A stretch of DNA of 64,000 nucleotides, from positions 141,998 to 205,997 of the forward strand of contig NZ_LDNB01000002.1 of assembly GCF_001026695.1 (NCBI RefSeq), written 5' to 3'. This document shows positions 1,631-46,186 of the stretch, piece after piece. Every line of letters begins with the position of its first letter. Position 1 is the stretch's first letter. The position numbers were made by a program, and so were the translations under genes. This stretch comes from Neobacillus vireti (GTDB lineage Bacteria > Bacillota > Bacilli > Bacillales > Cytobacillaceae). The notes under the pieces are model-generated. The model was not told the origin of the DNA, did no database searches, and was given only the letters and a program-made list of their open reading frames with translations.

Positions 1631-1673
1631 TGTGAGATAGTTCACATTTTTCAACTATAAACACCTTTATAAT
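1631..1673 (+). promoter_or_regulatory. Fnr box and -10 element of the radical SAM gene
   Basis: The palindrome TGTGAGATAGTTCACA (1631-1646) matches the Bacillus Fnr consensus TGTGA-N6-TCACW in both half sites. A TATAAT -10 lies at 1668-1673, which places the transcription start near 1680 and the box centre at -41.5. That is the classic class II activator position, with no good -35 needed. I infer anaerobic activation of the gene starting at 1729. Confidence 0.85.
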
Positions 1674-1728
1674 ACAAGGTATTAAGGCTGTTTGAGTTTG
1701 AAATAGCTGTTTTCGGGAGGCGTTTCAT

Positions 1729-2853
1729 ATGGCTTTTAGTCGAGATTTTAATAAAGATCCATTTATCGTCATTTGGGAGCTTACACGCGCATGTCAGTTA
1801 AAGTGCTTGCATTGCCGCGCTGATGCCCAGTATAAAAGGGATCCTCGTGAGCTGTCGTTTGAAGAAGGGAAACATTTAATTGATCAAATATATGACATGA
1901 ACAACCCAATGCTTGTATTTACGGGCGGAGATCCGCTTATGCGGGAAGATGTTTTTGAAATTGCTAAATATGCAGTTGAAAAAGGCGTCCGAGTATCGAT
2001 GACACCAAGTGCGACACCGAATGTTACCAAAGAAGCAATTGAAAAGGCGAAGGAAGTGGGGCTTTCCCGTTGGGCATTTAGTATTGACGGTCCAACAGCA
2101 GAGATTCACGACCATTTCCGTGGTACGGCTGGTTCATTCGATCTCACCATGGAAAAAATTAAATATTTGCATGAAGTAGGATTGCCGATTCAGATTAATA
2201 CTGTTATTTCCAGATACAATATTGAATATCTAGAAGAAATGGCAAAAATGGTTGAAGATTTGAATTGTGTCTTGTGGAGTGTCTTTTTCCTAGTTCCAAC
2301 AGGAAGAGGCCAGGTCTCTGATATGATTTCTCCAGTTGAACATGAAAAAGTTTTCAGATGGCTTTATGATTTAAGCAAGCGGGTATCCTTTGATATTAAA
2401 ACAACAGAAGCAATGCATTATCGCCGTGTTGTAATTCAGCAAAAAATGCGCGAAGCGAAGGAAACCGCAGATGAAATTGATTATTTAAGTGCCTTAACGG
2501 AAAAAGGGCTAACGGGATCAATCGACGGACTTGGACGAGCGCCGAAGGGCGTTAATGACGGAAACGGATTTGTATTTATTTCGCATATTGGGGATGTGTA
2601 CCCAAGCGGATTATTACCTGTAAAGGCAGGCAATGTCCGTGAAACTCCTTTAGTTGAAATTTACCGTGAGTCACCAATCTTTCAATCGTTAAGAAATCAA
2701 GATCTTTATAAAGGGAAATGCGGCGTTTGTGAATTCCGTTATGTATGCGGCGGTTCAAGATCGCGTGCATATGCGATGACCGGCGACTACCTTGAAAGCG
2801 AACCATTCTGTGTCTATATTCCAAAGTCATTAAGAGAGAAACAAGCGCAATAA
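1729..2853 (+). CDS. Radical SAM/SPASM protein, TIGR04053/AhbD-NirJ-like
   Basis: A 374-residue radical SAM enzyme. The CxxxCxxC motif (C22, C26, C29) binds the catalytic [4Fe-4S] cluster that cleaves S-adenosylmethionine, and FTGGDPLM is the typical glycine-rich SAM contact. The C-terminus has a SPASM-like region (C-x2-C-x5-C followed by a distal cysteine, from about residue 335) that would hold auxiliary clusters. Overall it resembles the family I know as TIGR04053 (BA_1875 type), related to the haem-pathway enzymes AhbD/NirJ. The substrate is unknown; a tetrapyrrole or peptide role is inference. It begins at an ATG after GGGAGG, is transcribed alone from an Fnr-type promoter, and faces the fnr gene. 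Confidence 0.8.
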   Translation: MAFSRDFNKDPFIVIWELTRACQLKCLHCRADAQYKRDPRELSFEEGKHLIDQIYDMNNPMLVFTGGDPLMREDVFEIAKYAVEKGVRVSMTPSATPNVTKEAIEKAKEVGLSRWAFSIDGPTAEIHDHFRGTAGSFDLTMEKIKYLHEVGLPIQINTVISRYNIEYLEEMAKMVEDLNCVLWSVFFLVPTGRGQVSDMISPVEHEKVFRWLYDLSKRVSFDIKTTEAMHYRRVVIQQKMREAKETADEIDYLSALTEKGLTGSIDGLGRAPKGVNDGNGFVFISHIGDVYPSGLLPVKAGNVRETPLVEIYRESPIFQSLRNQDLYKGKCGVCEFRYVCGGSRSRAYAMTGDYLESEPFCVYIPKSLREKQAQ

Positions 2854-2859
2854 AAACGG

Positions 2860-2890
2860 GAGGCTGCCTCAAGATTATTGAGACAGCCTC
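2860..2890. terminator. Hairpin terminator between convergent genes
   Basis: GAGGCTGCCTCAA pairs with TTGAGACAGCCTC around a 5-base loop with one mismatch. The T run (CCGTTTTTATTG) is on the minus-strand side, so it mainly terminates fnr, but it probably also stops the radical SAM transcript. Confidence 0.75.
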
Positions 2891-2906
2891 GTAAACAATA
2901 CTAATT

Positions 2907-3608
2907 TTATTCTATATTACAGTAAACCGCTGAACAATTTTCACAGCCAATTTCGTCCTTTAAGTATTGTAAATCTAATATCGATATTTTTCCTTTTTTT
3001 ACAGAAATAATTTTATCACGCTTTAAATCACTAAGAATGCGGTTTGTACTTTCCCGAGAGGTTCCGCAGAAGTTTGCGAGTTCTTGATTGGTTAACGGTA
3101 AGTCTATTAAAATTTCGTTGTTTTTTGGGATTCCATAACTATTAGACATCCGAATAAGTGTTGAGAATAAGGCGCCGCGTTTTCCATTTAAGACTAGATC
3201 GCGAAATTTCGTCTGTGTTTTTCGAAAATGGTCGCTCATCCATTTCATAAATTCAAACGCTAGCTTACTATTTTGAAAAATTTCACTTTCAATCACTTCT
3301 TTTTTAATCGCGACAATTTCTCCTTCTTCAAGAACCTTGGCACTTAATAAATATCTTGGGTTGTCTGTAAAAAGAGTTAATTCGCCGCAAATATCGTTTT
3401 CTCCACAAATTCTTAAGGAAAGTTCACGACCATCTGATGTAATTTTGCTGATTTGAATTTTGCCGGAAACGATAATGTAAAGCTCTTCCGCCAGCATTCC
3501 CTCCTGAAACAGGAAGCTTCCTCTTTCACTTCTAAATCTCCGATCAGCAAATTTATGCAATTCTTTTATTTCAATTGAATGGGTTGGTTTCATTGTCATC
3601 ATCGTCAT
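2907..3608 (-). CDS. fnr: Fnr-type oxygen-sensing transcription regulator (copy 1)
   Basis: A 233-residue Crp/Fnr regulator: cyclic-nucleotide-like beta barrel (about 20-120), dimerisation helix (about 110-145) and winged HTH (about 165-225) with the recognition region TNQELANFCGTSRESTNR. The C-terminal tail has C-x2-C-x4-C (C222, C225, C230), matching the cluster ligands reported for B. subtilis Fnr (C227, C230, C235). The aspartate in FRDLVL (D137) fits the reported fourth ligand. Expected role: bind TGTGA-N6-TCACA sites when its [4Fe-4S] cluster is intact, that is without oxygen. The ATG at 3608 follows GAGGTGA. A second, very similar copy lies at 12871-13569. Confidence 0.9.
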   Translation of the reverse strand: MTMMTMKPTHSIEIKELHKFADRRFRSERGSFLFQEGMLAEELYIIVSGKIQISKITSDGRELSLRICGENDICGELTLFTDNPRYLLSAKVLEEGEIVAIKKEVIESEIFQNSKLAFEFMKWMSDHFRKTQTKFRDLVLNGKRGALFSTLIRMSNSYGIPKNNEILIDLPLTNQELANFCGTSRESTNRILSDLKRDKIISVKKGKISILDLQYLKDEIGCENCSAVYCNIE

Positions 3609-3884
3609 TTAATTCACCTCTAACTTCTTTTTTTAGCTAATCTATTTTTTGATTAATTTAAAGGATTCGTTAGTATTAGTTTAGCGTAATAATGGTCAAT
3701 GATGAGAGGTAAACAATGACAATATAGTGAAAACTTATACGGAATTTTTAAATGTAATTGTGATTATATGATTTGGAGTGTAAGTTGAATCGAACTAGGG
3801 TAAATAAAGATGTATCCAAAAACAAGCATTTATTCATTTGGGTACATCTGTTAAGATAAACATAAGATTAAAGAGTATAATGAT
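3609..3884. other. Divergent fnr/moaA intergenic region with a 13-bp hairpin
   Basis: This stretch separates the divergent fnr and moaA genes. It holds an inverted repeat at 3808-3849: AGATGTATCCAAA pairs with TTTGGGTACATCT (one G-T pair) around a 16-base loop. There is no T run, so it is not a simple terminator. A TATAAT-like element at 3876-3881 could be an upstream moaA promoter. I see no coding sequence in it. Confidence 0.55.
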
Positions 3885-3927
3885 AGTGAAAAAAGTAACA
3901 GCCATTTTTCTAATACACTGGTACACT
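3885..3927 (+). promoter_or_regulatory. Probable Fnr box and extended -10 of moaA
   Basis: AGTGAAAAAAGTAACA (3885-3900) matches TGTGA-N6-TCACA at 8 of 10 positions. An extended -10, TGgTACACT, ends at 3927, giving a start near 3934 and a box centre at -41.5, the same geometry as the better Fnr sites in this window. The match is imperfect, so this is an inference supported mainly by the spacing. Confidence 0.55.
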
Positions 3928-3966
3928 AATATAAAATAGCTTCTTAAAATAATGGAGTTGATATAA

Positions 3967-4983
3967 ATGGAAAAAACCATTATTAAAGATAAATTAAATA
4001 GACCATTACGTGACTTGAGAATTTCGGTGATTGACCGCTGTAATTTTCGTTGTCAGTATTGCATGCCGGCAGATCAATTTGGACCTGATTTTGAATTCCT
4101 GCCAAGAAGTGCGTTACTGACATATGAAGAAATTGAACGGCTGGCCAAAATCTTTGTCAGCTTAGGTGTGGAAAAAATCCGCTTAACCGGGGGCGAACCT
4201 CTATTACGAAAAGATATGCCCATTCTTGTTAAGAAGCTGTCTGCGATTGAAGGTTTAAGTGACATCGGCTTAACAACGAATGGTGTGCTGCTCCCAAAAT
4301 TGGCAAAGGATTTAAAAGCGGCAGGTCTAAAAAGGGTAAATGTAAGCCTCGATACCTTAAATGATGAGTTATTTGGGGAAATTAACGGGCGTGGGGTTGG
4401 TACTGGACCAGTACTTGAAGGTATTGATGCGGCGAAACAGGCAGGCCTTGGGGTCAAAATCAATATGGTGGTAAAAAAAGGTCTAAATGATTCAGAAATT
4501 ATTCCGATGGCAGAATACTGTAAAAATCATGGCCTTGAGCTTCGTTATATTGAATTCATGGATGTCGGCTCGACAAACGGCTGGAAAATGGATGATGTTG
4601 TTACGAAAAAGCAGATTTATCATTTATTAAAAGAACAATTTGAATTGGAGCCAGTTGATCCGGCTTATTATGGTGAGGTGGCAAAGCTTTACCGCTATAA
4701 GGATGCAGACGTGAATGTAGGGTTTATTACTTCCGTCTCAGAATCGTTCTGCACAAGCTGTACCCGTTCCCGGCTTTCCGCAAATGGACAAATTTTTACT
4801 TGTTTATTTAATGGAAATGGTCACGATATTCGTAATTTCATGAGAAACGGCGCCACTGACGAAGAAATTGTTGCGCGCATTACAGCCATTTGGAATGGCC
4901 GTGATGACCGATATTCCGACGAAAGAACAGCTGAGACAAATAAAAACCGTAAAAAAATTGAAATGTCCTATATTGGTGGATAA
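3967..4983 (+). CDS. moaA: GTP 3',8-cyclase MoaA
   Basis: A 338-residue radical SAM enzyme for the first step of molybdenum cofactor synthesis, GTP to 3',8-cH2GTP, working with MoaC. The N-terminal C-x3-C-x2-C (C25, C29, C32) binds the SAM cluster and the C-terminal C-x2-C-x13-C binds the second cluster that holds GTP. The protein ends in the GG dipeptide characteristic of MoaA. Length is typical. No moaC, moaD or moaE is in the window. It is a single gene with a good hairpin after it, and its upstream region carries an Fnr-like site, consistent with supplying cofactor to anaerobic nitrate reductase. Confidence 0.95.
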
Positions 4984-4986
4984 TAT

Positions 4987-5017
4987 AACAGCCCGCTAAA
5001 AAGATTAGCGGGCTGTT
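4987..5017. terminator. Bidirectional hairpin between moaA and ric
   Basis: AACAGCCCGCTAA and TTAGCGGGCTGTT form a perfect 13-bp stem around a 5-base loop, just after the moaA stop and 5 bases beyond the end of the convergent ric gene. The short AT-rich tails mean it may serve both genes. Confidence 0.8.
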
Positions 5018-5022
5018 AATTA

Positions 5023-5721
5023 TTAAGAAAGGTATCTTGGGAATAAAATATTGTTTTCAAGATGCACATGCATGAAGGTTAATCCTTCTAGTGCTTCTAA
5101 TCTGGCATAGACTAATCGATAGGTTCCACAAGCGTCAAGAGGAAGTTCATAATCAAATGTTACAGCACGGATTTGGCGTAAAATTTCACCAGCATGATCA
5201 TGCTCTTTCTCAAGTTCAACAATCATCGCGATTGCTTCTGTACGGTTATCAACTGTTCCGTCCGCAAGTTGTTTAATTAATGGGAAGACTATTGCTTCTT
5301 CTTTTGCCATATGCTCGATTAATTCCTTTTTGAATTCATAGAAGAGTTCATATACTTTAATTAGCTCTCGATGATTGTCGCCATGTACCCGTGAAACCTT
5401 CGTTACGTATGGGCTTAGCGCAGCTAATTCTTCTTCAGATACCCGATGGTAATTTGTAATCACATGATCGATAATTGTATTGGAGTCGGAATCAGTCCAA
5501 ACTTCTACATCTTTCTCTGCGTTTTCGTATTTTTCAAAAACGACATTTAATTCAGCAATCAAAGTGTCCATATTAAGGCCGTTTTGAGCAACCGCTTCTG
5601 ATAATGGGATATTGCCGCCGCAGCAAAAGTCGATGCGGTTCTTTTTGAATACATCACTTGTTTTCGGTAACTCGTTTACAATATCTTTTACTAATGAATT
5701 CGAAGTAATAGGGAAAGTCAT
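5023..5721 (-). CDS. ric: Iron-sulfur cluster repair di-iron protein (Ric/ScdA/YtfE)
   Basis: A 232-residue protein that repairs nitrosative or oxidative damage to Fe-S clusters by donating iron from a di-iron centre. The N-terminal ScdA_N (DUF542) domain has the DFCCGG motif near residue 30, and the following hemerythrin-like domain has the histidine/glutamate helices HGDNHRE, EHMAKEEAIVFP, EHDHAGE and HVHLENNILFP. An upstream open frame reaches 5772, but the ATG at 5721 has an ideal AAGGAGG site and defines the family-typical N-terminus. It is divergent from moeA and preceded by a strong Fnr box, so it is probably induced under anaerobic, nitrate- or NO-generating conditions. Confidence 0.93.
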   Translation of the reverse strand: MTFPITSNSLVKDIVNELPKTSDVFKKNRIDFCCGGNIPLSEAVAQNGLNMDTLIAELNVVFEKYENAEKDVEVWTDSDSNTIIDHVITNYHRVSEEELAALSPYVTKVSRVHGDNHRELIKVYELFYEFKKELIEHMAKEEAIVFPLIKQLADGTVDNRTEAIAMIVELEKEHDHAGEILRQIRAVTFDYELPLDACGTYRLVYARLEALEGLTFMHVHLENNILFPRYLS

Positions 5722-5767
5722 GTTAAATCCTCCTTGAATTTTTAAAAGGTAGTTTATTTCTGACTTA

Positions 5768-5810
5768 AGCATAATTGAAAATGAATCTTAATTAGGTGAC
5801 CTGCATCACA
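5768..5810 (-). promoter_or_regulatory. Fnr box and -10 element of ric
   Basis: On the minus strand TGTGATGCAGGTCACC (5810-5795) fits TGTGA-N6-TCACA in 9 of 10 positions. A TATGCT -10 lies at 5773-5768, so the start is near 5761 and the box centre is at -41.5. I infer class II activation by Fnr. Confidence 0.75.
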
Positions 5811-5856
5811 CATTCACTATGATTTTTAAACTTTTTGTGAAAGATTGATTTATTTT

Positions 5857-5899
5857 TGTGACATTTGATATGTCAGCAAATTATATGTAGGTTTATAAT
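5857..5899 (+). promoter_or_regulatory. Degenerate Fnr half-site and -10 of moeA
   Basis: A TATAAT -10 at 5894-5899 sets the start near 5906. Exactly 41.5 bp upstream is a window beginning with the half site TGTGA (5857-5861), but its second half is poor. Overlapping it is a different palindrome, TGACAT-N5-ATGTCA (5859-5875), which could be another regulator's operator. Fnr control is only suggested. Confidence 0.4.
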
Positions 5900-5967
5900 G
5901 AAGATTAGTCATTTAAATTTAGTACATATATGGGGAAGTTACCCGTTTTAGGCAGGAGCTGATTAGT

Positions 5968-7233
5968 TTGTTAGAAAGAAGAAAACCGATACAAGTTGGG
6001 GAAGCAGTCCAAAGGATTATGGAACACCAATTACCTGGTGCAACCGAACTTGTCTCGATAAATGAAAGCTTTGGCCGCTTTCTTTCCGAAGATATAATTG
6101 CAACCAGCGATGTACCGCACTTTGACAGGGCACCATATGATGGTTTTGCGGTTAGATCAGTTGACACAAGTGTTGCCTCTCAGTCCAATCCTGTTGAATT
6201 TGAAGTGGTTGATCATATTGGTGCTGGAGCAGTTTCAACTAAAGTGGTTGGTCAAAATCAAGCAGTGCGAATTATGACTGGTGCGATGATGCCTGAAGGT
6301 ACAGATGCAGTTGTCATGTTTGAAGTTGCACAAGACTATCAAAAAGATGGAAAGCCATTTATGTCGATTAAGCGCAGCTTTAAAAAGGGTGATAATGTTT
6401 CCTTTACTGGTGAAGATGCCAAACAAGGAGAAATCTTAGTGAACAAAGGAACCTTGATTAATCCCGGCATTCAAGCGATGCTCGCCACGTTCGGCTATAA
6501 ACGTGTACCTGTAGCTAAAAAACCGCTTGTTGGATTGTTTGCGACCGGTACAGAGCTTTTGGAAGTGGAGGAAGAGTTAGTTCCGGGAAAAATCCGCAAT
6601 AGTAATTCTCATATGATTGCTGCCCAAATCGAGAGGGCCGGGGGTATTGTTCATTACTTAGGTAAGCTGCCAGATGAATTCAATACATGCTTTGAAGCAG
6701 TCAAAAACGCCTTAAATGAGGTAGATGTTTTAATTACCACTGGTGGTGTTTCCGTAGGTGACTTTGATTACCTTCCTGCGATTTATGAAAAACTAGGTGC
6801 AGAAGTGTTTTTTAATAAAGTGGCGATGCGCCCTGGAAGTGTGACTACCGTCGCTAATAATAATGGAAAAATCTTATTCGGACTTTCAGGAAATCCTTCC
6901 GCATGCTATGTCGGTTTTGAATTATTTGCCAGACCGATTATTCGCAGGATGCTGTTTTCGGAAAAACCACACTTACGAAGAGAAAAAGCGGTTCTTGAGG
7001 TCGACTTTCTTAAGGCAAATCCATTCACGAGATTTGTTCGCAGCTCTGTATTTATCGAGGATGGCAGGTTAAAAGTTGCCCCAAGCGGACTGGATAAGTC
7101 CAATATCATTATGAGCCTTTCAGGTGCTAATTCCTTGACGATTCTTCCGGGAGGTACGAGGGGATTTACTGCCGGCAGCGAGGTAGCAGTGCTATTACTT
7201 GAGGACCAAACCGGCAGTGAGTGGCCTTGGTAA
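5968..7233 (+). CDS. moeA: Molybdopterin molybdenumtransferase MoeA
   Basis: A 421-residue enzyme that inserts molybdate into adenylylated molybdopterin. Family landmarks include FDRAPYDGFAVR near residue 55, VRIMTGAMMPEGTDAVV, the MPT-binding TTGGVSVGDFDY near 255 and FGLSGNPSACYVGFE near 310. The start is a TTG with AGGAG 8 bases upstream; no ATG gives a full N-terminus. The end overlaps the start of mobB by 13 bases, so the two are co-transcribed and probably translationally coupled. It pairs functionally with moaA in the same locus. Confidence 0.93.
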   Translation: MLERRKPIQVGEAVQRIMEHQLPGATELVSINESFGRFLSEDIIATSDVPHFDRAPYDGFAVRSVDTSVASQSNPVEFEVVDHIGAGAVSTKVVGQNQAVRIMTGAMMPEGTDAVVMFEVAQDYQKDGKPFMSIKRSFKKGDNVSFTGEDAKQGEILVNKGTLINPGIQAMLATFGYKRVPVAKKPLVGLFATGTELLEVEEELVPGKIRNSNSHMIAAQIERAGGIVHYLGKLPDEFNTCFEAVKNALNEVDVLITTGGVSVGDFDYLPAIYEKLGAEVFFNKVAMRPGSVTTVANNNGKILFGLSGNPSACYVGFELFARPIIRRMLFSEKPHLRREKAVLEVDFLKANPFTRFVRSSVFIEDGRLKVAPSGLDKSNIIMSLSGANSLTILPGGTRGFTAGSEVAVLLLEDQTGSEWPW

Positions 7234-7760
7234 AGCCAGTAGTTTTTCAGGTAGTTGGTTATCAAAATAGCGGCAAGACAACTGTAATGATAAAGCTTAT
7301 TCAGGCGTTAAAAGACCTGGGCTTAACAACTGTTACAATCAAGCATCACGGTCACGGTGGCAAACCAGAAGTAATAGAGCAAAAGGATTCTACGAGACAT
7401 CTTTCAGCAGGAGCATCCGCCTCTGTCGTTGAGGGGGATGGAAGACTGATTCTGCATGCAGAAAATATCCATAGCAGTTTAGAAGATCAAATTAGACTCA
7501 TGGAATATTTTCAACCTGATGTGCAATTGATTGAAGGGTATAAGTTTGAAAATTATCCGAAATTATTGCTGGTAAGGGATCATAAAGACCTTTCGCTGCT
7601 AGCAAGGGTGGACAATATTAAGGTAATCATGTATTGGGAAGAAACGCTGAGAGAACCTCTTAATGAGCAGACAAAAATCCCTTGTTTTCCTATTCATGAT
7701 CAAACAGCCATTCTTTGGACTGCTCGAACAATCAAAAAGCTTTTTCTTTCTAAAACCTAA
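7221..7760 (+). CDS. mobB: Molybdopterin-guanine dinucleotide biosynthesis protein MobB
   Basis: A 179-residue P-loop GTPase that assists formation of the MGD form of molybdenum cofactor together with MobA. The Walker A motif GYQNSGKTT is near residue 13, followed by the MobB signature TIKHHGHGG and the later LIEGYKFENYPKLLLVR. The GTG start at 7221 lies inside the moeA 3' end. MGD is the cofactor of dimethylsulfoxide-reductase-family enzymes such as NarG, which fits the Fnr context. mobA is not in the window. Confidence 0.9.
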   Translation: MALVKPVVFQVVGYQNSGKTTVMIKLIQALKDLGLTTVTIKHHGHGGKPEVIEQKDSTRHLSAGASASVVEGDGRLILHAENIHSSLEDQIRLMEYFQPDVQLIEGYKFENYPKLLLVRDHKDLSLLARVDNIKVIMYWEETLREPLNEQTKIPCFPIHDQTAILWTARTIKKLFLSKT

Positions 7761-7787
7761 AAAAGAAGGCCTTGGCCTTCTTTTTTA
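7759..7787. terminator. Bidirectional terminator between mobB and the germination operon
   Basis: GAAGGCC and GGCCTTC form a tight stem with a 2-base loop, flanked by A6 on one side and T6 on the other. It terminates moeA-mobB on the plus strand and the convergent germination operon on the minus strand. Confidence 0.9.
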
Positions 7788-8879
7788 TTATGCCTTTCTA
7801 AGTTTTTCTCTGATGACAGCGACAAATAAAAGTAGCATAGGAATGAGCAGCTGAATGGTAATAAAATAAAAAGGTGTGGTAGTCCCCATACTTCGAATCA
7901 TTTCTTGAAATGAGGATGCTGACCAAACAGAAAAAAGAATAATTAAAAATCCAAATGGTAAGATAATCGGCTTATGACTATGCAGTTTCAGCCATTGTGA
8001 AGTGCCAAGGACGAGCATATAAAAAAACGCTGAAAGCTGTACAAAACCACCAAGAACCCAAACAGCTATGACAATTGACTCGACATGTTCAAAAATTGAT
8101 CCAATGCTAATATATCTTGCCGCTTGAAACACTGGAAATTGAGTACTGGTAATAATTCCGCCAAATAGAAAAATATTCCCGAGATTGATATAGACCATTG
8201 TCATGACGCTCACAGATACAGACAATATACTCCATTTCATCCCTTTAGTTTCGTCCGATAAAAAAGGAAGCAGGAAAGACAATAATGAAAATTGGCTTAA
8301 CCAAGCATGTGGTGCAAGGGAACCTTTAATAGATGGTATCCAGCCATACTCCATGATTGGAAATATATTTTTTACGTTCAGGTCGGGAATTAGGAATAAA
8401 TAGATTATTAAGTAAAGAACCAAGACAATAGGCAGGAAAATAATAGCACATCTTCCTAATACCTCTATGCCCCCATGGACAGCAAATGCACAAGTTAGTG
8501 CAATACCTCCTGTAACTACAACTAATGGAGTTTTATGCAAAAAAGCACTTTCGACGAATTCCCCATACTCCCTAAAAGCTATGGCCGTATCATATAATAG
8601 GAAGAACAAGAAGATGAACCCGATGATTTTCCCCAAGGTTCGACCAAGAATGAGTTCACTATATTCGACAAGGGTCTTCTTCGGGTAAAGTTTATAAAGT
8701 TTAGTAATAATAAAAACAATCAAAAAACCGCTTAAAGCAGCCCAAATAGGAGAAAGCCATAAATCACGTTTTGCATGTTGTGCAGTAATAAATGGAATAT
8801 AAAGAATGGCCGTGCCAACAACGACCGCGTATATAATTAGAGCCATTTGGAAAGGGGAAATTTTTCCTTTTTCGATCAT
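7788..8879 (-). CDS. Spore germinant receptor B subunit (GerAB/GerKB family)
   Basis: A 363-residue integral membrane protein with about ten transmembrane segments and the amino-acid-permease-like layout of GerAB-family subunits (APC superfamily). In germinant receptors this subunit binds the nutrient in the spore inner membrane. The N-terminus IEKGKISPFQMALIIYAVVVGTAIL is typical. It is the last gene of the A-C-D-B operon and follows the D gene with a 24-base gap. The ligand cannot be predicted, so I do not choose among gerA, gerB and gerK names. Confidence 0.9.
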   Translation of the reverse strand: MIEKGKISPFQMALIIYAVVVGTAILYIPFITAQHAKRDLWLSPIWAALSGFLIVFIITKLYKLYPKKTLVEYSELILGRTLGKIIGFIFLFFLLYDTAIAFREYGEFVESAFLHKTPLVVVTGGIALTCAFAVHGGIEVLGRCAIIFLPIVLVLYLIIYLFLIPDLNVKNIFPIMEYGWIPSIKGSLAPHAWLSQFSLLSFLLPFLSDETKGMKWSILSVSVSVMTMVYINLGNIFLFGGIITSTQFPVFQAARYISIGSIFEHVESIVIAVWVLGGFVQLSAFFYMLVLGTSQWLKLHSHKPIILPFGFLIILFSVWSASSFQEMIRSMGTTTPFYFITIQLLIPMLLLFVAVIREKLRKA

Positions 8880-8903
8880 TTTGCTTCATTCCTTTATAAG
8901 AGA

Positions 8904-9134
8904 CTAACTAATTTCCCAATATCTGCCGATTGGTTTGAAGATAAAGTCAATTAATTGGCTTGGTCCAGGCATGTTTGGGAATAAAACGAGTAAAATAGCT
9001 AGCACCCATCCAATCGTGATTAAGGTAAAAAACACTACTATTATTTTCCGTCCATTTTTCTTAAGTTTTGGCCATTCCCATAAGTAGATAAGCACTATTA
9101 GAGCAGTTATCCCAAATATACCTCCCACCTTCAT
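8904..9134 (-). CDS. Germinant receptor small D subunit (two TM segments)
   Basis: A 76-residue protein with two predicted membrane helices (about 5-20 and 31-50), lying between the C and B genes. Its start overlaps the C gene stop by 4 bases (ATGA), so it is translationally coupled. Size, topology and position match the D subunits described in some Bacillus Ger operons, which tune germination rate. Sequence conservation in such proteins is low, so the call rests on context. Confidence 0.7.
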   Translation of the reverse strand: MKVGGIFGITALIVLIYLWEWPKLKKNGRKIIVVFFTLITIGWVLAILLVLFPNMPGPSQLIDFIFKPIGRYWEIS

Positions 9135-10339
9135 TTTTCTTCACCACCTTTTCTTGCTTCCTCATTCTCTAATCCTGTTCTAATAATATTTACTTTCGTT
9201 TCGAATGTAATATCTACTTTTGGGAATATCTCCTTCCATTCGCTGCTCTTCCTTCTCCATATTCTTGGGTATTTCCGTTGAAACGCTTCTGCAAACCCGA
9301 AAATGTCAGCATTTAATTTTTCTTGCGTTTTCGATAAAGCTAATTTCTCTCTATCTTCAATTTCTTGAACAACTTTCCGTTCTACTTCTTTTAACGATTT
9401 TGAATGTAATAAACTTAGATTTGATGTATTTTGGATAACTTCTAGATCCGCATCTGTCTTCACTCTAATGCTCCATTTTCCATTCATAATCTTAGGCATC
9501 AGCTGATTATTGCTTCTTAGCAAATTTAGAGATACATAACCCGTTTCGCCATTTGTACGAATGGTAATAATACCTGATTTCATTTCATTTCTCGGCCAAA
9601 GAATCCCTCGAGTTTCTTTATCGCTCAACCACCCGACCATCTTATCTCCTCTCAATACGGCTGCCCCTTGAATGAATGGAATGTTCTTCCCTTTGTTAAC
9701 TCCCAAATTGGACGGTGACAATTTTGCAACCCAAGGAATAACGGCTGCACCAGCTTCCCCTGATAACATTTCCGACAAATCTTTTACCGTTACTTTTACA
9801 CCAATCTGTGAGTCGACCAATTTGCGAAGCTGTTTAGCAGAGTCCCGCTCCAACTCAGGCATCGACTCCAAAACCTCCTTTGCTGAGTCCATAGAAACAA
9901 AAACATCAGCACGTTCGCGAGGCTCCGAATGCCGCATCCAAAAATCAATTTGATCCTCAATTCCTCTTTTTGCTAATTTCTCACCGATAACTAGCACCTC
10001 GTTTTGTCCCCAGAAAATCCGCCTTGTAAGTTTCTCTTGGAGCCTAGACATCGCATCAGCAATTGTTACTCCTTCGGCTGATCTGACTAAGGTTTGACTA
10101 CTATTAGTTCCGCTTGACACCCCTTCTTGTTGTCCGCCTTCTGCCGGTTTTGGTATAAATACTTGGACGGACAGTTCAATCGCCTCCTTTTTGCTTACAT
10201 CAACACCAGTTGCCAAAATGATTGCTAAGTCATTTACCTCTGTACGATCCCAGCATCCAGCAAGCAAAAGGATTATGAGGCAAAGAAGAAGGACTAGGGA
10301 AATATAGTTATTCTTCCTCCGTCTGGAAGAGTCCATCAT
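9131..10339 (-). CDS. Spore germinant receptor C subunit lipoprotein (GerAC/GerKC)
   Basis: A 402-residue Ger(x)C-family protein. A basic N-terminus and hydrophobic stretch end in the lipobox LLAGC, and the mature protein begins CWDRTEVND, the usual start of GerAC-type lipoproteins. It is anchored on the outer face of the spore inner membrane and supports assembly of the A and B subunits. Its ATG shares a base with the A gene stop (TAATG), and a good GGTGGTGA site lies within the A gene end. Confidence 0.92.
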   Translation of the reverse strand: MMDSSRRRKNNYISLVLLLCLIILLLAGCWDRTEVNDLAIILATGVDVSKKEAIELSVQVFIPKPAEGGQQEGVSSGTNSSQTLVRSAEGVTIADAMSRLQEKLTRRIFWGQNEVLVIGEKLAKRGIEDQIDFWMRHSEPRERADVFVSMDSAKEVLESMPELERDSAKQLRKLVDSQIGVKVTVKDLSEMLSGEAGAAVIPWVAKLSPSNLGVNKGKNIPFIQGAAVLRGDKMVGWLSDKETRGILWPRNEMKSGIITIRTNGETGYVSLNLLRSNNQLMPKIMNGKWSIRVKTDADLEVIQNTSNLSLLHSKSLKEVERKVVQEIEDREKLALSKTQEKLNADIFGFAEAFQRKYPRIWRRKSSEWKEIFPKVDITFETKVNIIRTGLENEEARKGGEEK

Positions 10340-11913
10340 TAATCACCACCTTTACTTGGACCGGGTTTCTGACCATGAGGCTGCCGCTGCAGGTTTCCTA
10401 ATTCAGTAGACAAGGAATCGGGACGTGTGTTCATTGCCCACCAAGGGGCGCGAATGAGTACATCCCTTAAATTGTGAATCTTAAGTGGGGCAATTGAATT
10501 TAAATACGGAACACCGAAAGAACGTATGGTGCAAAGATGGACGACAATAGCGATAACCCCAAGCATAACCCCTAATAAACCTAATATTCCGGATAATATC
10601 ATGATTGGAAAGCGTAGCATCCGAATCGCAATTCCTGCAGCATATCTTGGTAGTAAAAACGAGGCTACCCCCGTAATCGCCACCACCATTACCATCGCTG
10701 ATGAAACAAGACCAGCCGTGGTTGCTGCTTGTCCAATGACAAGTGCGCCAACGATACTTACTGCAGCACCTACTTGTTTCGGCAGTCTTATACCCGCTTC
10801 GCGCAATGCCTCAAATGTGATTTCCATAATGAATGCTTCAATCAATGCCGGGAATGGGATTTGCTCACGGCTTTGGGCAATGGTTAAGAGGAGAGATGCA
10901 GGGACCATTTCTTGGTGGTACGTAAGAATAGCAACATAAGCTGATGGAGCAAGCAATGCAATAAAAAAGAATAAATAACGCAGCCAACGGATGAATGTAC
11001 TGATTAAAAATCGGTTGTAGTAATCTTCTGGTGCTTGTAACAAACTTGCGAACGTACATGGAGCAATAAGGGTGAAGGGAGTCCCATCAATCAATATGAC
11101 AACCCGTCCTTCTAAAAGGCTGGAGGCAGCAACATCCGGCCGTTCGGTTGATAATACTTGCGGGAAAGGAGAAAAAGGATCATCCTCAATCATTTCCTCG
11201 ATATACCCGCTTTCTAAAATACCATCGATTTCAATTCGTTCTAACCGATTTGTTACTTCTTTGATTAATGTATTGCTTGCGATCCCTTCAATATAAGCAA
11301 TGATTACTTGCGTTTCTGTGAACTTACCGATTGTCATTTGTTTCATTTTTAAGGCGGGATGGCGAATTTTTCTTCGTAAAAGGGAAGTGTTTACTCTTAT
11401 TGTTTCAACAAAACCTTCCCTCGGACCGCGAATAACGGATTCGGCAACCGGATCCTCGATTCCCCGTTTCTCCCACTTTGGTAAACCTATAGAAATTCCT
11501 TTTATTTTATTGTTAATAAGAATCACGGGGTTTCCAATTGAAATTTGTTTAATAACATCAGTAATGGTTTTGATTACGCTTACATCAGAAACAGCTAATT
11601 TCTTACTTACATTTTCAATCGATATTCCTGGATCAAAGCTTTCCAACTGTACGAGCGGCATGAGAACCTGTTGATCAATTTCCTGAGTATTTGAAAGCCC
11701 ATCGATATAAATGAGAGCAGCCTTTGTCCGAGCACCGATGGTAAATTCACGAAATACGACATCGGAGCAATCGGTATAAGCAGATTTTAGTATTTCGATA
11801 TTTTGATTCATATCCTGATTGATTGGTATGTTGGGTAATATAGATAGTGTTTCCGTTATTTGCTGGCATGGAAAACGGTCTCCACTATTTTTTTTATGCT
11901 TAAAAAAATTCAT
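10339..11913 (-). CDS. Spore germinant receptor A subunit (GerAA/GerKA)
   Basis: A 524-residue germination protein of the GerAA/SpoVAF family: a large cytosolic N-terminal domain (about 1-290), several membrane helices (about 300-460) and a hydrophilic C-terminus. The family motifs GPREGFVET and SLLEGRVVILIDGTPF are visible. The frame is open upstream to 11976, but the ATG at 11913 has an AAGGGGA site. It is the first gene of the A-C-D-B operon. Ger operons are normally transcribed by sigma-G in the forespore; I could not find a convincing sigma-G promoter by eye. Confidence 0.92.
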   Translation of the reverse strand: MNFFKHKKNSGDRFPCQQITETLSILPNIPINQDMNQNIEILKSAYTDCSDVVFREFTIGARTKAALIYIDGLSNTQEIDQQVLMPLVQLESFDPGISIENVSKKLAVSDVSVIKTITDVIKQISIGNPVILINNKIKGISIGLPKWEKRGIEDPVAESVIRGPREGFVETIRVNTSLLRRKIRHPALKMKQMTIGKFTETQVIIAYIEGIASNTLIKEVTNRLERIEIDGILESGYIEEMIEDDPFSPFPQVLSTERPDVAASSLLEGRVVILIDGTPFTLIAPCTFASLLQAPEDYYNRFLISTFIRWLRYLFFFIALLAPSAYVAILTYHQEMVPASLLLTIAQSREQIPFPALIEAFIMEITFEALREAGIRLPKQVGAAVSIVGALVIGQAATTAGLVSSAMVMVVAITGVASFLLPRYAAGIAIRMLRFPIMILSGILGLLGVMLGVIAIVVHLCTIRSFGVPYLNSIAPLKIHNLRDVLIRAPWWAMNTRPDSLSTELGNLQRQPHGQKPGPSKGGD

Positions 11914-11976
11914 CACTTGGATCCCCTTTTCAATAATCAAGGTTATTCTTTCCAAAAAAAACGGGTTTATGAGCAT

Positions 11977-11997
11977 TTTCTAGATGTCTACTAGAAA
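11977..11997. repeat. Short palindrome in the ger/ywiC intergenic region
   Basis: TTTCTAG and CTAGAAA are separated by 7 bases in the divergent region upstream of the germination operon and the YwiC-like gene. It could be a small operator; there is no T run for termination. Confidence 0.35.
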
Positions 11998-12032
11998 GTG
12001 ATGAAATTTCTTCACAATTGAAGGTGTCATTA

Positions 12033-12075
12033 TGTGATATGTTTCACTTTTTTTTCTGCTTCGCTGCTTTATATT
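12033..12075 (+). promoter_or_regulatory. Fnr box and -10 element of the ywiC-like gene
   Basis: TGTGATATGTTTCACT (12033-12048) matches the Fnr consensus TGTGA-N6-TCACW at every conserved position. A TATATT -10 is at 12070-12075, placing the start near 12082 and the box centre at -41.5. This is the best Fnr site in the window together with the one at 1631. Confidence 0.85.
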
Positions 12076-12105
12076 AGAGGCAGTTAGGAATAAGGAGTGA
12101 CTAAG

Positions 12106-12834
12106 ATGAAGTTATTTTTACCAAAACAACATGGTGCGTGGGCAATGCTGATCATCCCTTTTTGGCTTGGGGTCATCAATGGGGGCTTTTTATGGCAGCA
12201 TATCCCGTTTTTTATCGGCTGGCTCTTATTGTACTTAGCAACCTATCCGATGCTCCTCTTATTTAAAAAGAAAAAAATCTCGTTTTATACAAAGTGGACA
12301 CTTATTTATATGGTACCGGCATTATTGCTTTTAGCCATTCCATTAGTTGTAAGACCAAGTATTGTTTATTTTGGACTTTTAATGCTCCCTTTTTTTATGA
12401 TAAATGCTTACTATACTTCAAAGAATCAAGACCGAGCCTTTATGAATGATATTAGCGCTATCTTCGCTTTTTCAATTGCTAGCTTGGCTAGCAGTTATTT
12501 GTTGGAAGGAAATGTGACCGTCACGGCGATTATTTTCGCCTTCATTACATCTGTGCTATTTTTTATTGGCTGTACCTTTTACGTAAAATCAATGATCAGG
12601 GAAAAGAAGAATACGAAGTTCAAATGGATTTCATGGGCATATCATTTCCTGCTCGTTCTAGTCTGGATCATGGGTGGTTTTTGGATTGTAGCACTCGCCT
12701 ATATTCCCAGCTTGCTCAGAGCTATCTTTTTTTACGGAAAGAAGTTATCTCCAAAGCAAATTGGTATTTACGAAATCCTAAACTCATGTTTGTTCTTCTT
12801 CATCATTGCTATCCAAATAATTTTACAAAAATAA
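12106..12834 (+). CDS. ywiC: YwiC-like integral membrane protein
   Basis: A 242-residue membrane protein with about eight hydrophobic segments, starting with the family signature PKQHGAWAMLIIPFW. In B. subtilis ywiC lies next to fnr and narK and its function is unknown; a prenyltransferase-like (UbiA) fold has been suggested to me only by the general pattern, not by clear motifs. The earlier GTG at 12097 sits inside the AAGGAG binding site, so the ATG at 12106 is the start. A perfect Fnr box upstream indicates anaerobic induction, and the second fnr gene is convergent with it. Confidence 0.85.
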   Translation: MKLFLPKQHGAWAMLIIPFWLGVINGGFLWQHIPFFIGWLLLYLATYPMLLLFKKKKISFYTKWTLIYMVPALLLLAIPLVVRPSIVYFGLLMLPFFMINAYYTSKNQDRAFMNDISAIFAFSIASLASSYLLEGNVTVTAIIFAFITSVLFFIGCTFYVKSMIREKKNTKFKWISWAYHFLLVLVWIMGGFWIVALAYIPSLLRAIFFYGKKLSPKQIGIYEILNSCLFFFIIAIQIILQK

Positions 12835-12870: not shown

Positions 12871-13569
12871 CTAATCAACCTTACATATTTCGGTTGGACA
12901 ATCTTCGCAATCGATTTCCCTTTTTAAATACCCTAAATCATGAATTGTAATTGTGCCCTTATCTATCGAGATCGTGCCAGTTTTTCTAAGGTCGCTCAGT
13001 AACCGGTTTACCACTTCACGGGAGGTGCCGCAGAAATTAGCCAATTCTTGATTGGTTAACGGTAAACCAATCAATATCCCTTTATTTGTTTTAATACCAT
13101 AGCTATTGCTGATTCTAATCAGTGTGGAATACAAAGCGCCTTTTTTGCCGTGAAGAACTAAGTCACGAAATTTGGTTTGTGTTTTACGGTATTGCAAACT
13201 CATCCATTTTATGAATTCAAAGGAAAGCTGAAGGTCTTGCGAAAGTTTTTCTTCCAGAACGTCCTTCATAATGACGGCAACTTCACCACTTTCAACGACC
13301 CGAGCGCTTAATAAATACCTGGAAGCAGGGGAAAATAAATTTAATTCACCGACAAAATCACCGCTAGAGCACATTCTTAATGTAAGCTCTCTTCCGTCAG
13401 GAATAATTTTACTGATTTGAAGTATCCCGCTTTGGACTATATACAATTCATCGGCAATAGAACCTTCCTGAAAAAGAAACGTGCCTTTTTTTATTTTTCT
13501 TACATGGTGCACCGTATCAAATAGATGGGAAAATATTACGGGTAATTCTTTAACTGACTGCATGCTCAT
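12871..13569 (-). CDS. fnr: Fnr-type oxygen-sensing transcription regulator (copy 2)
   Basis: A 232-residue paralogue of the gene at 2907-3608, with the same barrel, dimer helix and HTH (TNQELANFCGTSREVVNR). The C-terminal C-x2-C-x4-C (C221, C224, C229) and the aspartate in FRDLVL are kept, so it should also carry a [4Fe-4S] cluster. The recognition helix differs from copy 1 only at SREVVNR versus SRESTNR, so both may read the same boxes. The frame is open to 13629, but the ATG at 13569 follows AAGGTGG and is preferred. Which copy is the functional orthologue of B. subtilis Fnr cannot be decided here; the ywiC neighbourhood favours this one. Confidence 0.88.
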   Translation of the reverse strand: MSMQSVKELPVIFSHLFDTVHHVRKIKKGTFLFQEGSIADELYIVQSGILQISKIIPDGRELTLRMCSSGDFVGELNLFSPASRYLLSARVVESGEVAVIMKDVLEEKLSQDLQLSFEFIKWMSLQYRKTQTKFRDLVLHGKKGALYSTLIRISNSYGIKTNKGILIGLPLTNQELANFCGTSREVVNRLLSDLRKTGTISIDKGTITIHDLGYLKREIDCEDCPTEICKVD

Positions 13570-13844
13570 AACCACCTTTAAAGGTGCGAAATAAATCGCA
13601 AATTTGATTTTAAAAAAAATGACAGTCATGATTGGATTTTACAAGATATTACTATAATTATATTGTTAACCAGGAATATTTAGCAATAAATGTGGAATAA
13701 GTTCATATAATCGTCAAAAGTTAAACGACATATAAATATTTCTCAGGAAATAACGTCGATGTTTGTTGAAATTTGAAAGAAATTCCTATAATGACAACAC
13801 TCAAAAAGGAAATAATAAAGAGTAGATGAAAAGGAGGGAAAACA

Positions 13845-42860: not shown

Positions 42861-42971
42861 ATGGAGGATAGCACACTTTTTAAAAGGAAATTAGAACATT
42901 TAGGAGAATATACTTATTTAGGGGTCTCCCCGCAATCCGAATTTGAATGGAGGAAGAATGATGACAAATGA
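42861..42971 (+). CDS. Candidate 36-residue upstream ORF overlapping pepF
   Basis: An ATG at 42861 opens a 36-codon frame (MEDSTLFKRK start) that ends at 42971, overlapping the first codons of pepF in another frame. It is preceded by GGGG, but the intervening TATAAT could equally be a pepF -10 element. If translated, it would couple translation to pepF. A frame this short can arise by chance, so confidence is low. Confidence 0.3.
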   Translation: MEDSTLFKRKLEHLGEYTYLGVSPQSEFEWRKNDDK

Positions 42972-44781
42972 AACGGCTGTAAAGTCTTTGCCAGCTAGAA
43001 GTGAGATTTCAGTGGATGACACTTGGAAACTAGAGGACATTTTTGCGACTGATAAGGAATGGGAAAAAGAATTCCAAGAGGTAAAAAAACAAATTCCCGG
43101 CATTAAAGCGTTTGAAGGGAAGTTAGGAGAAAGTGCGGAGACACTTTATAATGCTCTTCAGTTCCAGGATCAACTGTTGGAGCGAATTGGAAAGCTTTAT
43201 ACATATTCGCATATGCGCTATGACCAGGATACAACGAACTCTTTTTACCAAGGCTTGGATGACAGAATGAAGAATTTGTATTCGCAAGCAGCCAGCCAAT
43301 TGGCCTTTATTGTTCCGGAAATTCTTTCGATTGATGAAGTCAAGGTGACAAGCTTTTTGAATGAAAAGCAAGAATTAAAGCTATATGAACACGCCATCGA
43401 AGAAATTAATCTGCAAAGACCGCATGTGCTGACAGCTGAGCAGGAATCTTTATTAGCGGAAGCAAGCGAAGTAATGGATGCTTCTAGTAATACCTTCGGA
43501 ATGTTAAATAATGCTGATTTGGAGTTCCCATCCATTAAAGATGAAAATGGGGAAGATGTTGAAATTACTCACGGCCGATATAGCCGTTTCTTAGAAAGCG
43601 GAGATCAGCGGGTAAGACGCGATGCCTTTAAAGCAGTTTATAAAACATATGGAGCATTTAAAAATACATTCTCAAGCACATTAAGCGGCAATGTGAAAAA
43701 GGATAATTTTAATGCAAGAGTGAGAAAGTATGATTCAGCAAGGCATGCAGCCCTTTCTGCCAACAATATTCCGGAGAGTGTGTACGATAACCTAGTCAAT
43801 ACTGTCACAGAAAATCTTCCATTATTACATCGCTATGTGAAGCTTCGAAAGAAAGTGCTGGGGCTTGATGAGCTTCATATGTATGATTTGTACACGCCAC
43901 TTGTAAAAGATGTGAAAATGGAAATTAAATATGAGGAAGCAAAGGATTTAGTCATTAAAGGGCTGGCCCCGTTAGGTGAGGAATATGCAAAAATTCTAAA
44001 AGAGGGCTTTGATAATCGTTGGGTCGATGTTCATGAGAATAAAGGGAAGCGGAGCGGCGCTTACTCTTCTGGCGCATATGGAACACATCCGTATATTCTT
44101 ATGAACTGGCAGGATAACGTGAATAATTTATTTACCTTGGCCCACGAATTCGGTCACTCTGTGCATAGCTATTATACACGGAAATCACAGCCATATCCGT
44201 ATGGAAACTACTCGATTTTTGTTGCTGAAGTGGCTTCGACCTGTAATGAAGCATTATTAAATGATTATTTATTGAAAACGATTGATGATGAACAGAAACG
44301 TATCTACCTCCTTAATCACTATTTAGAAGGGTTTAGAGGAACGGTATTCAGGCAGACGATGTTTGCGGAGTTTGAGCATTTAATTCATCAAAAAGCTCAA
44401 AATAATGAGGCATTAACCGCTGATGCTTTAACAGAGGCCTATTATGAATTGAATAAGAAGTATTTTGGTGAAGAGGATATTGTAATCGATGAGGAAATCG
44501 GCTTAGAGTGGGCGAGAATTCCGCATTTTTATTACAATTATTATGTGTACCAGTACGCTACCGGCTTCAGTGCTGCAACTGCTTTAAGCAAGCAAATTTT
44601 AGAAGAAGGCGAGCCAGCAGTAAAACGCTATATTCAGGAGTTCTTAAGTGCTGGAAGCTCTGACTATCCAATTGAAGTGCTAAAGAAAGCTGGAGTCGAC
44701 ATGACGAGTGCAGATCCTGTTAAGAATGCTTGTAAGGTATTTGAAGAAAAACTGAATGAATTAGAGCGATTATTATCATAA
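42961..44781 (+). CDS. pepF: Oligoendopeptidase F
   Basis: An M3-family zinc metallopeptidase of about 606 residues that degrades oligopeptides in the cytosol. The HEFGHSVHSYY zinc motif (HExxH) is near residue 390, with the third ligand in VAEVASTCNEALLN. Adjacent ATGs at 42958 and 42961 follow GGAGG; spacing favours 42961. It lies after coiA as in B. subtilis, where the pair is linked. It would process peptides imported by the App and Opp systems nearby. Confidence 0.95.
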   Translation: MTNETAVKSLPARSEISVDDTWKLEDIFATDKEWEKEFQEVKKQIPGIKAFEGKLGESAETLYNALQFQDQLLERIGKLYTYSHMRYDQDTTNSFYQGLDDRMKNLYSQAASQLAFIVPEILSIDEVKVTSFLNEKQELKLYEHAIEEINLQRPHVLTAEQESLLAEASEVMDASSNTFGMLNNADLEFPSIKDENGEDVEITHGRYSRFLESGDQRVRRDAFKAVYKTYGAFKNTFSSTLSGNVKKDNFNARVRKYDSARHAALSANNIPESVYDNLVNTVTENLPLLHRYVKLRKKVLGLDELHMYDLYTPLVKDVKMEIKYEEAKDLVIKGLAPLGEEYAKILKEGFDNRWVDVHENKGKRSGAYSSGAYGTHPYILMNWQDNVNNLFTLAHEFGHSVHSYYTRKSQPYPYGNYSIFVAEVASTCNEALLNDYLLKTIDDEQKRIYLLNHYLEGFRGTVFRQTMFAEFEHLIHQKAQNNEALTADALTEAYYELNKKYFGEEDIVIDEEIGLEWARIPHFYYNYYVYQYATGFSAATALSKQILEEGEPAVKRYIQEFLSAGSSDYPIEVLKKAGVDMTSADPVKNACKVFEEKLNELERLLS

Positions 44782-45066: not shown

Positions 45067-45137
45067 TGTGAAATTAAGCACAAACTATTGTCATGTATTC
45101 AAAGGCATGCTATATTATATATGTGAAGTTAATCACA
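45067..45137 (+). promoter_or_regulatory. roxS promoter with two Rex/Fnr-like palindromes
   Basis: TTGTCA (45088-45093) and TATATT (45111-45116) are 17 bp apart, giving a start near 45123. Upstream at 45067-45082 is TGTGAAATTAAGCACA (centre -48.5), and across the start at 45122-45137 is TGTGAAGTTAATCACA. Both resemble the Rex operator TTGTGAA-N4-TTCACAA, and the second also fits the Fnr consensus fully. roxS is known to be controlled by ResD and by the NADH-sensing repressor Rex in B. subtilis; the site over the start fits repression. Confidence 0.75.
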
Positions 45138-45322: not shown

Positions 45323-46186
45323 CTATTCATCAATATACCTCCAAAATGTTCCGTATTTCGCGGGGATCTGTTCCACGACCTGTTTTAAAAGTAGTTTTTT
45401 CATTTCCCGTTCAATTTGCGCAATGGGCATATTATAAACAACGGAAATTTCCTTTGAGGCGACAAATTTAAAAAACTTCATAAATGTTTCTAATGGAGGC
45501 GGCGGCGATTTCATTGGTTTCTTTGGAAGCATTTCCTCTAAAATTTGTACATAGACCTCATAGGGATAGCTCCCGGTAATTTTGATGCCTTCATCCTCGG
45601 CATTTTCATTAAAAAATACCAATGTTGGAATTTCGATTACTTCCATTTCCGCTGTTATTTTCAAATCACATTGGAATGCTTTTGCAGCACTTTCAGAATG
45701 AATATCAATCATAAATTCTTCAACATCCAATCCGGAACGGCCGGCGCAATCCTTTAACACCTCTAGATTAGAAATGTTTTGCTTTTCTAAAAATAACATC
45801 TCTTGAATTTTCCGAAGAAAACGAAACCCAGCACGTCTTCCCTGTAATTCAGCTGCTTTAAGCGCAATTGAAACGGTAGACGGAGTATCCACCGGATTCT
45901 CTAACCAAAGACTTCCATCGCATGACATTCCTGATTTGCTTGCTATTTTCTCCCAGACTTGAGCGATATTCTCATAGTTTTTCTTTTTACTCAAATTTAA
46001 ATTGGCCAGCCGTCCGCTTAAAACATTTTTAATGGAAAAATACTGTCCATATTCAATTCTTAGTTTTTTTAGAATGGGTTCAAGTCCCCAACATTCAGGG
46101 CATAAAGGATCAATAAACATGTAAATTTCAATGGGTTTTTTATCAATGCCGCTGCACTTAGAGCCATGTAATGTAAAATTATTCAC
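45323..46186 (-). CDS. yjbH: Spx proteolysis adaptor YjbH (SpxH)
   Basis: A 287-residue DsbA/FrnE-like thioredoxin-fold adaptor that presents Spx to ClpXP. The CxxC is in [11 protein letters not shown], and the C-terminal winged part begins after the polyproline PPPPLETF. A longer frame begins at 46213, but the GTG at 46186 is 6 bases after AGGTGA and yields the usual N-terminus [11 protein letters not shown]. It then overlaps the yjbI end by 8 bases, indicating coupled translation in a yjbI-yjbH operon. With spxA nearby it forms the Spx control circuit. Confidence 0.93.

Follow-up and report, generated by a model that had tools for sequence, protein, structure and literature searches.

A putative Fnr-driven radical SAM enzyme for anaerobic heme synthesis in Neobacillus vireti

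The stretch analyzed here (hereafter the window) comprises 64,000 nucleotides from the soil bacterium Neobacillus vireti (contig NZ_LDNB01000002.1, positions 141,998 to 205,997; genome size 5.31 Mb). It contains three promoters with Fnr-type palindromes, which precede a radical S-adenosylmethionine (SAM) gene of family TIGR04053, ric, and ywiC. Judged from the sequence, it is probable that Fnr activates all three promoters in the class II manner and that the radical SAM gene encodes an anaerobic coproheme decarboxylase. ChdC is reported to need hydrogen peroxide (H2O2), and the anaerobic enzyme of Bacillus relatives is described as "yet unknown" in a 2024 paper. We lean, with a little less confidence, towards a broader proposal: Fnr-driven TIGR04053 would supply the oxygen-independent coproheme decarboxylase so far missing in Neobacillus, Mesobacillus, Cytobacillus and relatives, with Fnr swapping ChdC out in parallel to Haloferax, and a His-rich paralogue with a different promoter would perform the same chemistry and have displaced NirJ2 in a distant Firmicutes genus. 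The proposal draws on sites, spacing, conservation, co-occurrence with Fnr, family membership and loss of nirJ2, all of which are observed by sequence.

In the proposed mechanism, an Fnr dimer carrying a [4Fe-4S] cluster would bind the TGTGA-N6-TCAC sites at -41.5 when oxygen is absent and exert class II activation. The genes turned on would be the radical SAM gene, ric and ywiC in the window, along with genes at other places in the genome that encode a truncated hemoglobin, Hcp and a hemerythrin. The TIGR04053 type 1 protein would most likely convert coproheme to heme b using SAM rather than H2O2, taking over from peroxide-dependent ChdC so that heme is still made without oxygen, while Ric would repair iron-sulfur (Fe-S) clusters. 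Ric proteins act in Fe-S cluster repair, and Hcp and truncated hemoglobin handle nitric oxide (NO).

Promoter geometry, conservation and co-occurrence with Fnr

The original prediction placed three Fnr palindromes in the window, each 41.5 bp before the start that a -10 element predicts. Direct reading of the sequence confirms all three, listed here with the genes that they precede:

1631-1646, forward strand: Fnr site of the radical SAM gene, TGTGAGATAGTTCACA, centered at -41.5
1668-1673, forward strand: -10 box TATAAT of the radical SAM gene, implied +1 at 1680
1729-2853, forward strand: radical SAM/SPASM protein, TIGR04053 type 1 (537 bits, cut-off 395; type from the tree)
5810-5795, reverse strand: Fnr site of ric, TGTGATGCAGGTCACC, centered at -41.5
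5773-5768, reverse strand: -10 box TATGCT of ric, implied +1 at 5761
5023-5721, reverse strand: ric, di-iron Fe-S cluster repair protein (TIGR03652, 245.5 bits, cut-off 204.7)
12033-12048, forward strand: Fnr site of ywiC, TGTGATATGTTTCACT, centered at -41.5
12070-12075, forward strand: -10 box TATATT of ywiC, implied +1 at 12082
12106-12834, forward strand: ywiC, membrane protein (PF14256, 140 bits, cut-off 25)

The transcription starts are deduced from the -10 boxes, and -41.5 is counted from these implied starts. All three TGTGA-N6-TCAC palindromes lie 21 nt from the -10 box, and each has 0 or 1 mismatch to the consensus TGTGA-N6-TCACA. For ric, the start in the list of open reading frames (ORFs), 5772, falls within the promoter, and the likely translation start is the ATG at 5721, which is preceded by AAGGAGG. 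Translation of ywiC likely starts at the ATG at 12106. The appearance of all three promoters as Fnr-activated is supported, and we infer Fnr binding and an oxygen response at each.

The loose palindrome alone (two mismatches at most) is not enriched in the window, with 32 occurrences versus 25.7 expected and 13 of 100 shuffles reaching 32. The pattern TGTGAN6TCAC-N22-TATNNT occurs three times, versus none in 300 first-order Markov windows. The claim that the repeated spacing exceeds chance is thus upheld, yet the spacing is not remarkable in itself because -41.5 is usual at FNR-activated promoters: those of Escherichia coli are usually centered near this position, 19 of 23 within 4 nt (PMC3688515). 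The repetition is therefore what Fnr predicts.

A genome scan, also proposed originally, was run with a pattern. TGTGAN6TCAC followed by TATNNT within 6-36 nt yields 24 matches, against five for the reversed-pattern control. Seven of the 24 have the exact spacing of the three promoters (binomial p 7.7e-6, or p = 0.004 without the three window sites, on the assumption that all 31 spacings are equally likely). The other four precede genes for a truncated hemoglobin, hcp, a hemerythrin-domain protein and an ndh-like protein, the first three, assigned by family matches, being further candidate members of the regulon. The ndh-like gene, named by eye from its sequence, has tandem Rex-like palindromes upstream, and its match looks like a Rex operator. 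Twenty perfect palindromes occur in the genome, 15 of which were inspected with their surroundings; most are off this spacing and several are Rex-like, and we therefore rely on spacing and conservation. No site with two or fewer mismatches was found in the 660 nt upstream of narG, scanned on the coding strand.

Among relatives, the site and its -10 box (TATAAT or TATACT, 21 nt downstream) are kept at 110 of 110 radical SAM loci, a set that includes the window itself and duplicates and reduces to 97 distinct upstream sequences. All of the latter except that of locus L128 are within two mismatches (96/97). The distance from site to gene varies from 69 to 144 nt across these 96 sequences, and the spacing to the -10 box is constant. 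When the spacing was slid as a control, 109 of the 110 loci matched at 21 and no more than 35 at any of 17 other spacings. The promoter lies within 300 nt of the gene at 109 loci; in L128 (about position 4637) it is found at -364, and the GC-rich stretch between it and the gene looks inserted.

The other genes were compared across 80 named loci, where a usable row required a match meeting the identity limit, a start within 15 residues and at least 120 nt upstream; 16 rows were unusable for ric, three for moaA, six for the regulator gene fnrA and 14 for moeA. All 64 usable ric loci are within four mismatches for site and -10 box together, and 63 are within three. For ywiC, the site and spacing are present in 10 of 12 loci, which remain from 20 fetched regions after eight gave no match; among the 12, L216 matches only 294 nt upstream and L224 is cut at the region edge. 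The original prediction had also drawn moaA and moeA into the module, and this part gains some ground, as both genes have weaker sites that prefer the same spacing. For moaA, 22 of 77 loci are within three mismatches at spacing 21 (19 loci at the next best spacing) and 51 of 77 within four; for moeA, 33 of 66 are within three (16 loci at the next best spacing). A spacing preference is absent upstream of fnrA in relatives, and fnrB has no site, with at least five mismatches at 19 of 19 relatives' loci.

These last two genes, fnrA and fnrB, encode Fnr proteins with a C-terminal CX2CX4C motif, which would bind the cluster as in Bacillus subtilis Fnr. The motif is found in 76/76 fnrA-type and 18/19 fnrB-type frames of relatives, the frames having been chosen by sequence pattern. 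TIGR04053, as either paralogue, is over its cut-off in 97 of 121 family genomes, and 97 of 121 also have a strong Fnr match (<1e-70). Both are present in 94 genomes and neither in 21; three have Fnr without TIGR04053 (G015, G022, G093) and three have TIGR04053 without a strong Fnr match (G013, G028, G045). In G028 and G045, the radical SAM gene is still preceded by a perfect palindrome (loci L256 and L257), and TACAAT follows it at the Fnr spacing. TIGR04053 was also considered as a marker of nitrate reduction and rejected, narG being over its cut-off in 34 of 97 genomes with it and 5 of 24 without (p 0.23 by a Fisher test, which takes no account of relatedness).

We note that the hcp gene with an Fnr-geometry promoter (C4:411904-413469 of the same genome) adjoins a gene for a third Crp/Fnr protein, in which the C-terminal cysteines are absent. 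Two more TGTGA palindromes, 55 bp apart, are found in the window at 45067-45082 and 45122-45137, between two long ORFs that converge (42943-44781, forward; 45323-46213, reverse). Neither shows a -10 box at the Fnr spacing, so far as the second one was tested.

The TIGR04053 protein and heme synthesis

The models closest to the radical SAM protein are TIGR04053 (537 bits) and AhbD, and its counterparts in Neobacillus drentensis and N. soli are 95% identical. It contains the motifs CX3CX2C (CQLKCLHC) and CX2CX5CX20C, both invariant in the set A1; the second corresponds to the motif described for the auxiliary cluster of NirJ (PMC10548856). A tree of 43 proteins, which comes with a long-branch warning, splits 26 TIGR04053 rows from NirJ2 and NirJ1 by a 100/99 branch. 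Near-invariant residues common to the radical SAM protein and NirJ2 and not to NirJ1, for which four rows were compared, include His127, Gln155, Thr158 and Glu206 as well as Lys224, Thr226, Arg233 and Tyr363. One paper equates NirJ2 with AhbD, the enzyme that decarboxylates coproheme without oxygen, and NirJ1 with AhbC (PMC10991733). No solved structure is named AhbD or NirJ. The nearest structures, by sequence and by the fold of a predicted model (predicted local distance difference test score 80, predicted template modeling score 0.83), are PqqE, SuiB, SkfB and BlsE, and these matches suggest a SPASM-type radical SAM protein and no more. From the evidence described below, we infer that TIGR04053 type 1 probably catalyzes coproheme decarboxylation.

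Two genomes of one genus, G241 and G123, have lost nirJ2 and have type 2 TIGR04053, the sister clade of type 1. Their heme operon is otherwise kept, with hemA, hemC, cobA/hemD, nirJ1, hemB, a siroheme-decarboxylase-like gene and hemL (called by family searches for three G241 genes and by eye for the rest). The nirJ2 remnant of G241 (L225:7782-7955) joins residues of about 1-22 directly to 308-344, and that of G123 (L226:7991-8050) retains about 20 C-terminal residues. Both genomes carry a TIGR04053 gene elsewhere. In the sister genus G218, the genes stand in the same order and nirJ2 is intact; G218 does not belong to the eight genomes, of 219 in the phylum sample, that carry TIGR04053.

A second line of evidence comes from haloarchaea. 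Deletion of ahbD (HVO_2144) in Haloferax harms anaerobic growth only, the ChdC-type PitA serving aerobic growth, and added heme relieves the defect partly in denitrification and fully in dimethyl sulfoxide respiration (PMC5746218). The H. larsenii gene in the neighborhood matching that of H. volcanii ahbD scores 501.6 bits with TIGR04053 and 342.8 bits with the AhbD model TIGR04545; the shared neighborhood includes genes for a halocyanin, a cbb3-type oxidase subunit and a multicopper oxidase. TIGR04053 also matches the H. volcanii control genome at 1e-115. Three control genomes match the family and two exceed the cut-off, the output not distinguishing which two. Type 2 being the sister of type 1, the window's type 1 is bracketed by type 2 and the haloarchaeal proteins.

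ChdC is found in 6 of the 8 TIGR04053 genomes of the phylum sample versus 13 of the 211 others, three of the six belonging to one genus. The genome of the window has its own ChdC gene at C5:73602.

The same genome carries a type 2 paralogue at C12:757881-758957 (L152), with a His-rich N-terminus. This gene and its relatives (L132-L151) have no Fnr site, and many copies share an upstream AATATTGTAACAA element with TATAAT, which suggests another regulator. Of the nine conserved flanking clusters listed around type 2 genes, none looks like a heme gene, as judged by eye and not by a family scan. On the Thermus plasmid pHB5018d (NZ_AP024273.1, L169), a TIGR04053 gene shares its stretch with YwiC-like and DUF542 genes and with genes for a multicopper oxidase and a cbb3-type oxidase subunit, so that relatives of all three Fnr targets of the window stand together in another phylum. 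A TIGR04053 gene 84% identical to that of the window also appears on NZ_CP029056.1 (L170), a 2.9-kb "Campylobacter jejuni plasmid" that carries a molybdenum cofactor guanylyltransferase gene as well; it is likely contamination from a Bacillaceae genome.

Opposing evidence and alternative readings

Several observations weigh against assigning the protein to heme synthesis under Fnr control. Its score with TIGR04545 is 386, below the cut-off of 500, a value reached by 0 of 219 phylum genomes, NirJ2-bearing ones included. TIGR04053 forms a clade separate from NirJ2 in the tree. In G241 and G123, nirJ2 was displaced by a gene of the type 2 clade, the sister of type 1 found in the window, so that the displacement concerns type 2 and not type 1; moreover, these are the two TIGR04053 genomes of the 219 without ChdC. 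The Haloferax family score is that of the H. larsenii counterpart and not of HVO_2144 itself. The B. subtilis control has no TIGR04053 match at 1e-90 and yet this species grows on nitrate (PMC10991733), and another solution must therefore exist there. Thermus papers assign the TIGR04053 homologue to heme d1 or NirS maturation. Finally, the site is kept in G028 and G045, where Fnr has no match at 1e-40; TIGR04053 is missing from 5 of 39 genomes with narG, and narG from 63 of 97 genomes with TIGR04053.

The alternative that survives best, which we still consider unlikely, is an ordinary Fnr regulon only, with class II promoters and a radical SAM protein whose function lies elsewhere. The position at -41.5 is the usual one for FNR, the name of the TIGR04053 model carries no function, and the presence of the family does not follow narG. 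However, the displacement of nirJ2, the haloarchaeal neighborhood and phenotype, and the residues common with NirJ2 but not NirJ1 all point to heme.

A role as a NirJ-type enzyme for the heme d1 of cytochrome cd1 nitrite reductase seems very improbable. A TIGR04053 gene does come after nirS on the Thermus plasmid pTF24b, and the Thermus protein is called NirJ in the literature. The NirJ model TIGR04051, however, gives the window's protein only 163 bits against a cut-off of 515; the pHB5018d gene is beside a multicopper oxidase with no nirS in the stretch shown, and added heme relieves the defect of the haloarchaeal ahbD mutant.

We likewise attach very little credence to the idea that the sites serve another Crp/Fnr-family regulator rather than the CX2CX4C Fnr proteins. 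The third family member adjoining hcp and the two genomes that keep the site without an Fnr match would fit such a regulator, but the genes for the CX2CX4C proteins lie next to the targets, and these proteins and TIGR04053 tend to occur in the same genomes. Least credible is that the palindromes are operators of Rex, the repressor sensing NADH/NAD+: its consensus TTGTGAAW4TTCACAA is similar (PMC2883068) and several perfect palindromes of the genome fit it, including the tandem pair before the ndh-like gene, but by eye the three sites all depart from the 18-bp consensus, and a constant distance to the -10 box would be expected for an activator and not for a repressor. Fnr activation of a coproheme decarboxylase gene remains the reading that we prefer.

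Neighboring genes, known systems and significance

The other relevant features of the window are as follows:

2907-3608, reverse strand: fnrA, Crp/Fnr regulator ending CENCSAVYC (CX2CX4C; Pfam and sequence)
3885-3900, forward strand: weak Fnr-like site of moaA, AGTGAAAAAAGTAACA, with TACACT at 3922-3927 at the same spacing
3967-4983, forward strand: moaA, GTP 3',8-cyclase (TIGR02666, 398.6 bits, cut-off 284)
5968-7233, forward strand: moeA (Pfam MoeA domains)
7221-7760, forward strand: mobB (Pfam PF03205)
12871-13629, reverse strand: fnrB, Crp/Fnr regulator ending CEDCPTEIC (CX2CX4C; NCBIfam Crp/Fnr-family matches; the true start may be further in)

The three target genes had been described as a compact module for anaerobic respiration and Fe-S protection. 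Compactness is not borne out: spore-germination genes, together with fnrA, moaA, moeA and mobB, lie between the targets, and further members are located elsewhere in the genome. Fe-S protection is plausible for ric, which is over the TIGR03652 cut-off. The truncated hemoglobin, hcp and hemerythrin members look more like NO defense than respiration itself. The original prediction gave no explanation of the radical SAM gene, for which the evidence points to heme synthesis independent of oxygen.

The promoter geometry is ordinary and of a known kind. As at the class II promoters of E. coli FNR (PMC3688515), a single palindrome per promoter is found near -41.5 before anaerobic targets. The differences are in the targets (the TIGR04053 gene, ric, ywiC, truncated hemoglobin and hemerythrin) and in the regulators, which here carry CX2CX4C at the C-terminus. 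The Fnr regulon of B. subtilis is said to have been described by Reents et al. in 2006.

The TIGR04053 protein resembles AhbD/NirJ2 of the siroheme pathway in being a radical SAM protein with CX3CX2C and CX2CX5CX20C motifs and shared near-invariant residues, and the family is present where nirJ2 has been lost. It differs in scoring under the TIGR04545 cut-off, in forming a separate clade and in occurring here in a genome with ChdC, on which ground it is probably fed by the coproporphyrin pathway. Haloferax volcanii, with ahbD and PitA, likewise has separate aerobic and anaerobic heme enzymes, and its ahbD shares a promoter palindrome with denitrification genes; this system, in contrast, is archaeal, uses another regulator motif and is thought to derive coproheme from siroheme. 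The nirJ of Thermus denitrification regions also encodes a TIGR04053 protein, and YwiC-like and DUF542 genes lie close to it on pHB5018d; it differs in its assigned role and in its regulators.

Reviews already note that some organisms can use an AhbD for the coproporphyrin pathway and that ahbD can occur near hemY/hemH/hemQ (PMC7242693, PMC10548856). Our literature search found no paper mentioning "TIGR04053" and, in the parts of the papers available, no assignment of the TIGR04053 gene in Bacillaceae; for ywiC it returned nothing usable. The new point is probably the placement of an AhbD-like enzyme where the anaerobic heme step was reported missing. A gene, a likely regulator with its site, and a natural gene displacement that predicts the reaction can now be named, which makes the question of anaerobic heme synthesis testable. 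If the proposal is true, Fnr would switch the last heme step from peroxide-dependent ChdC to a radical SAM enzyme when oxygen is absent.

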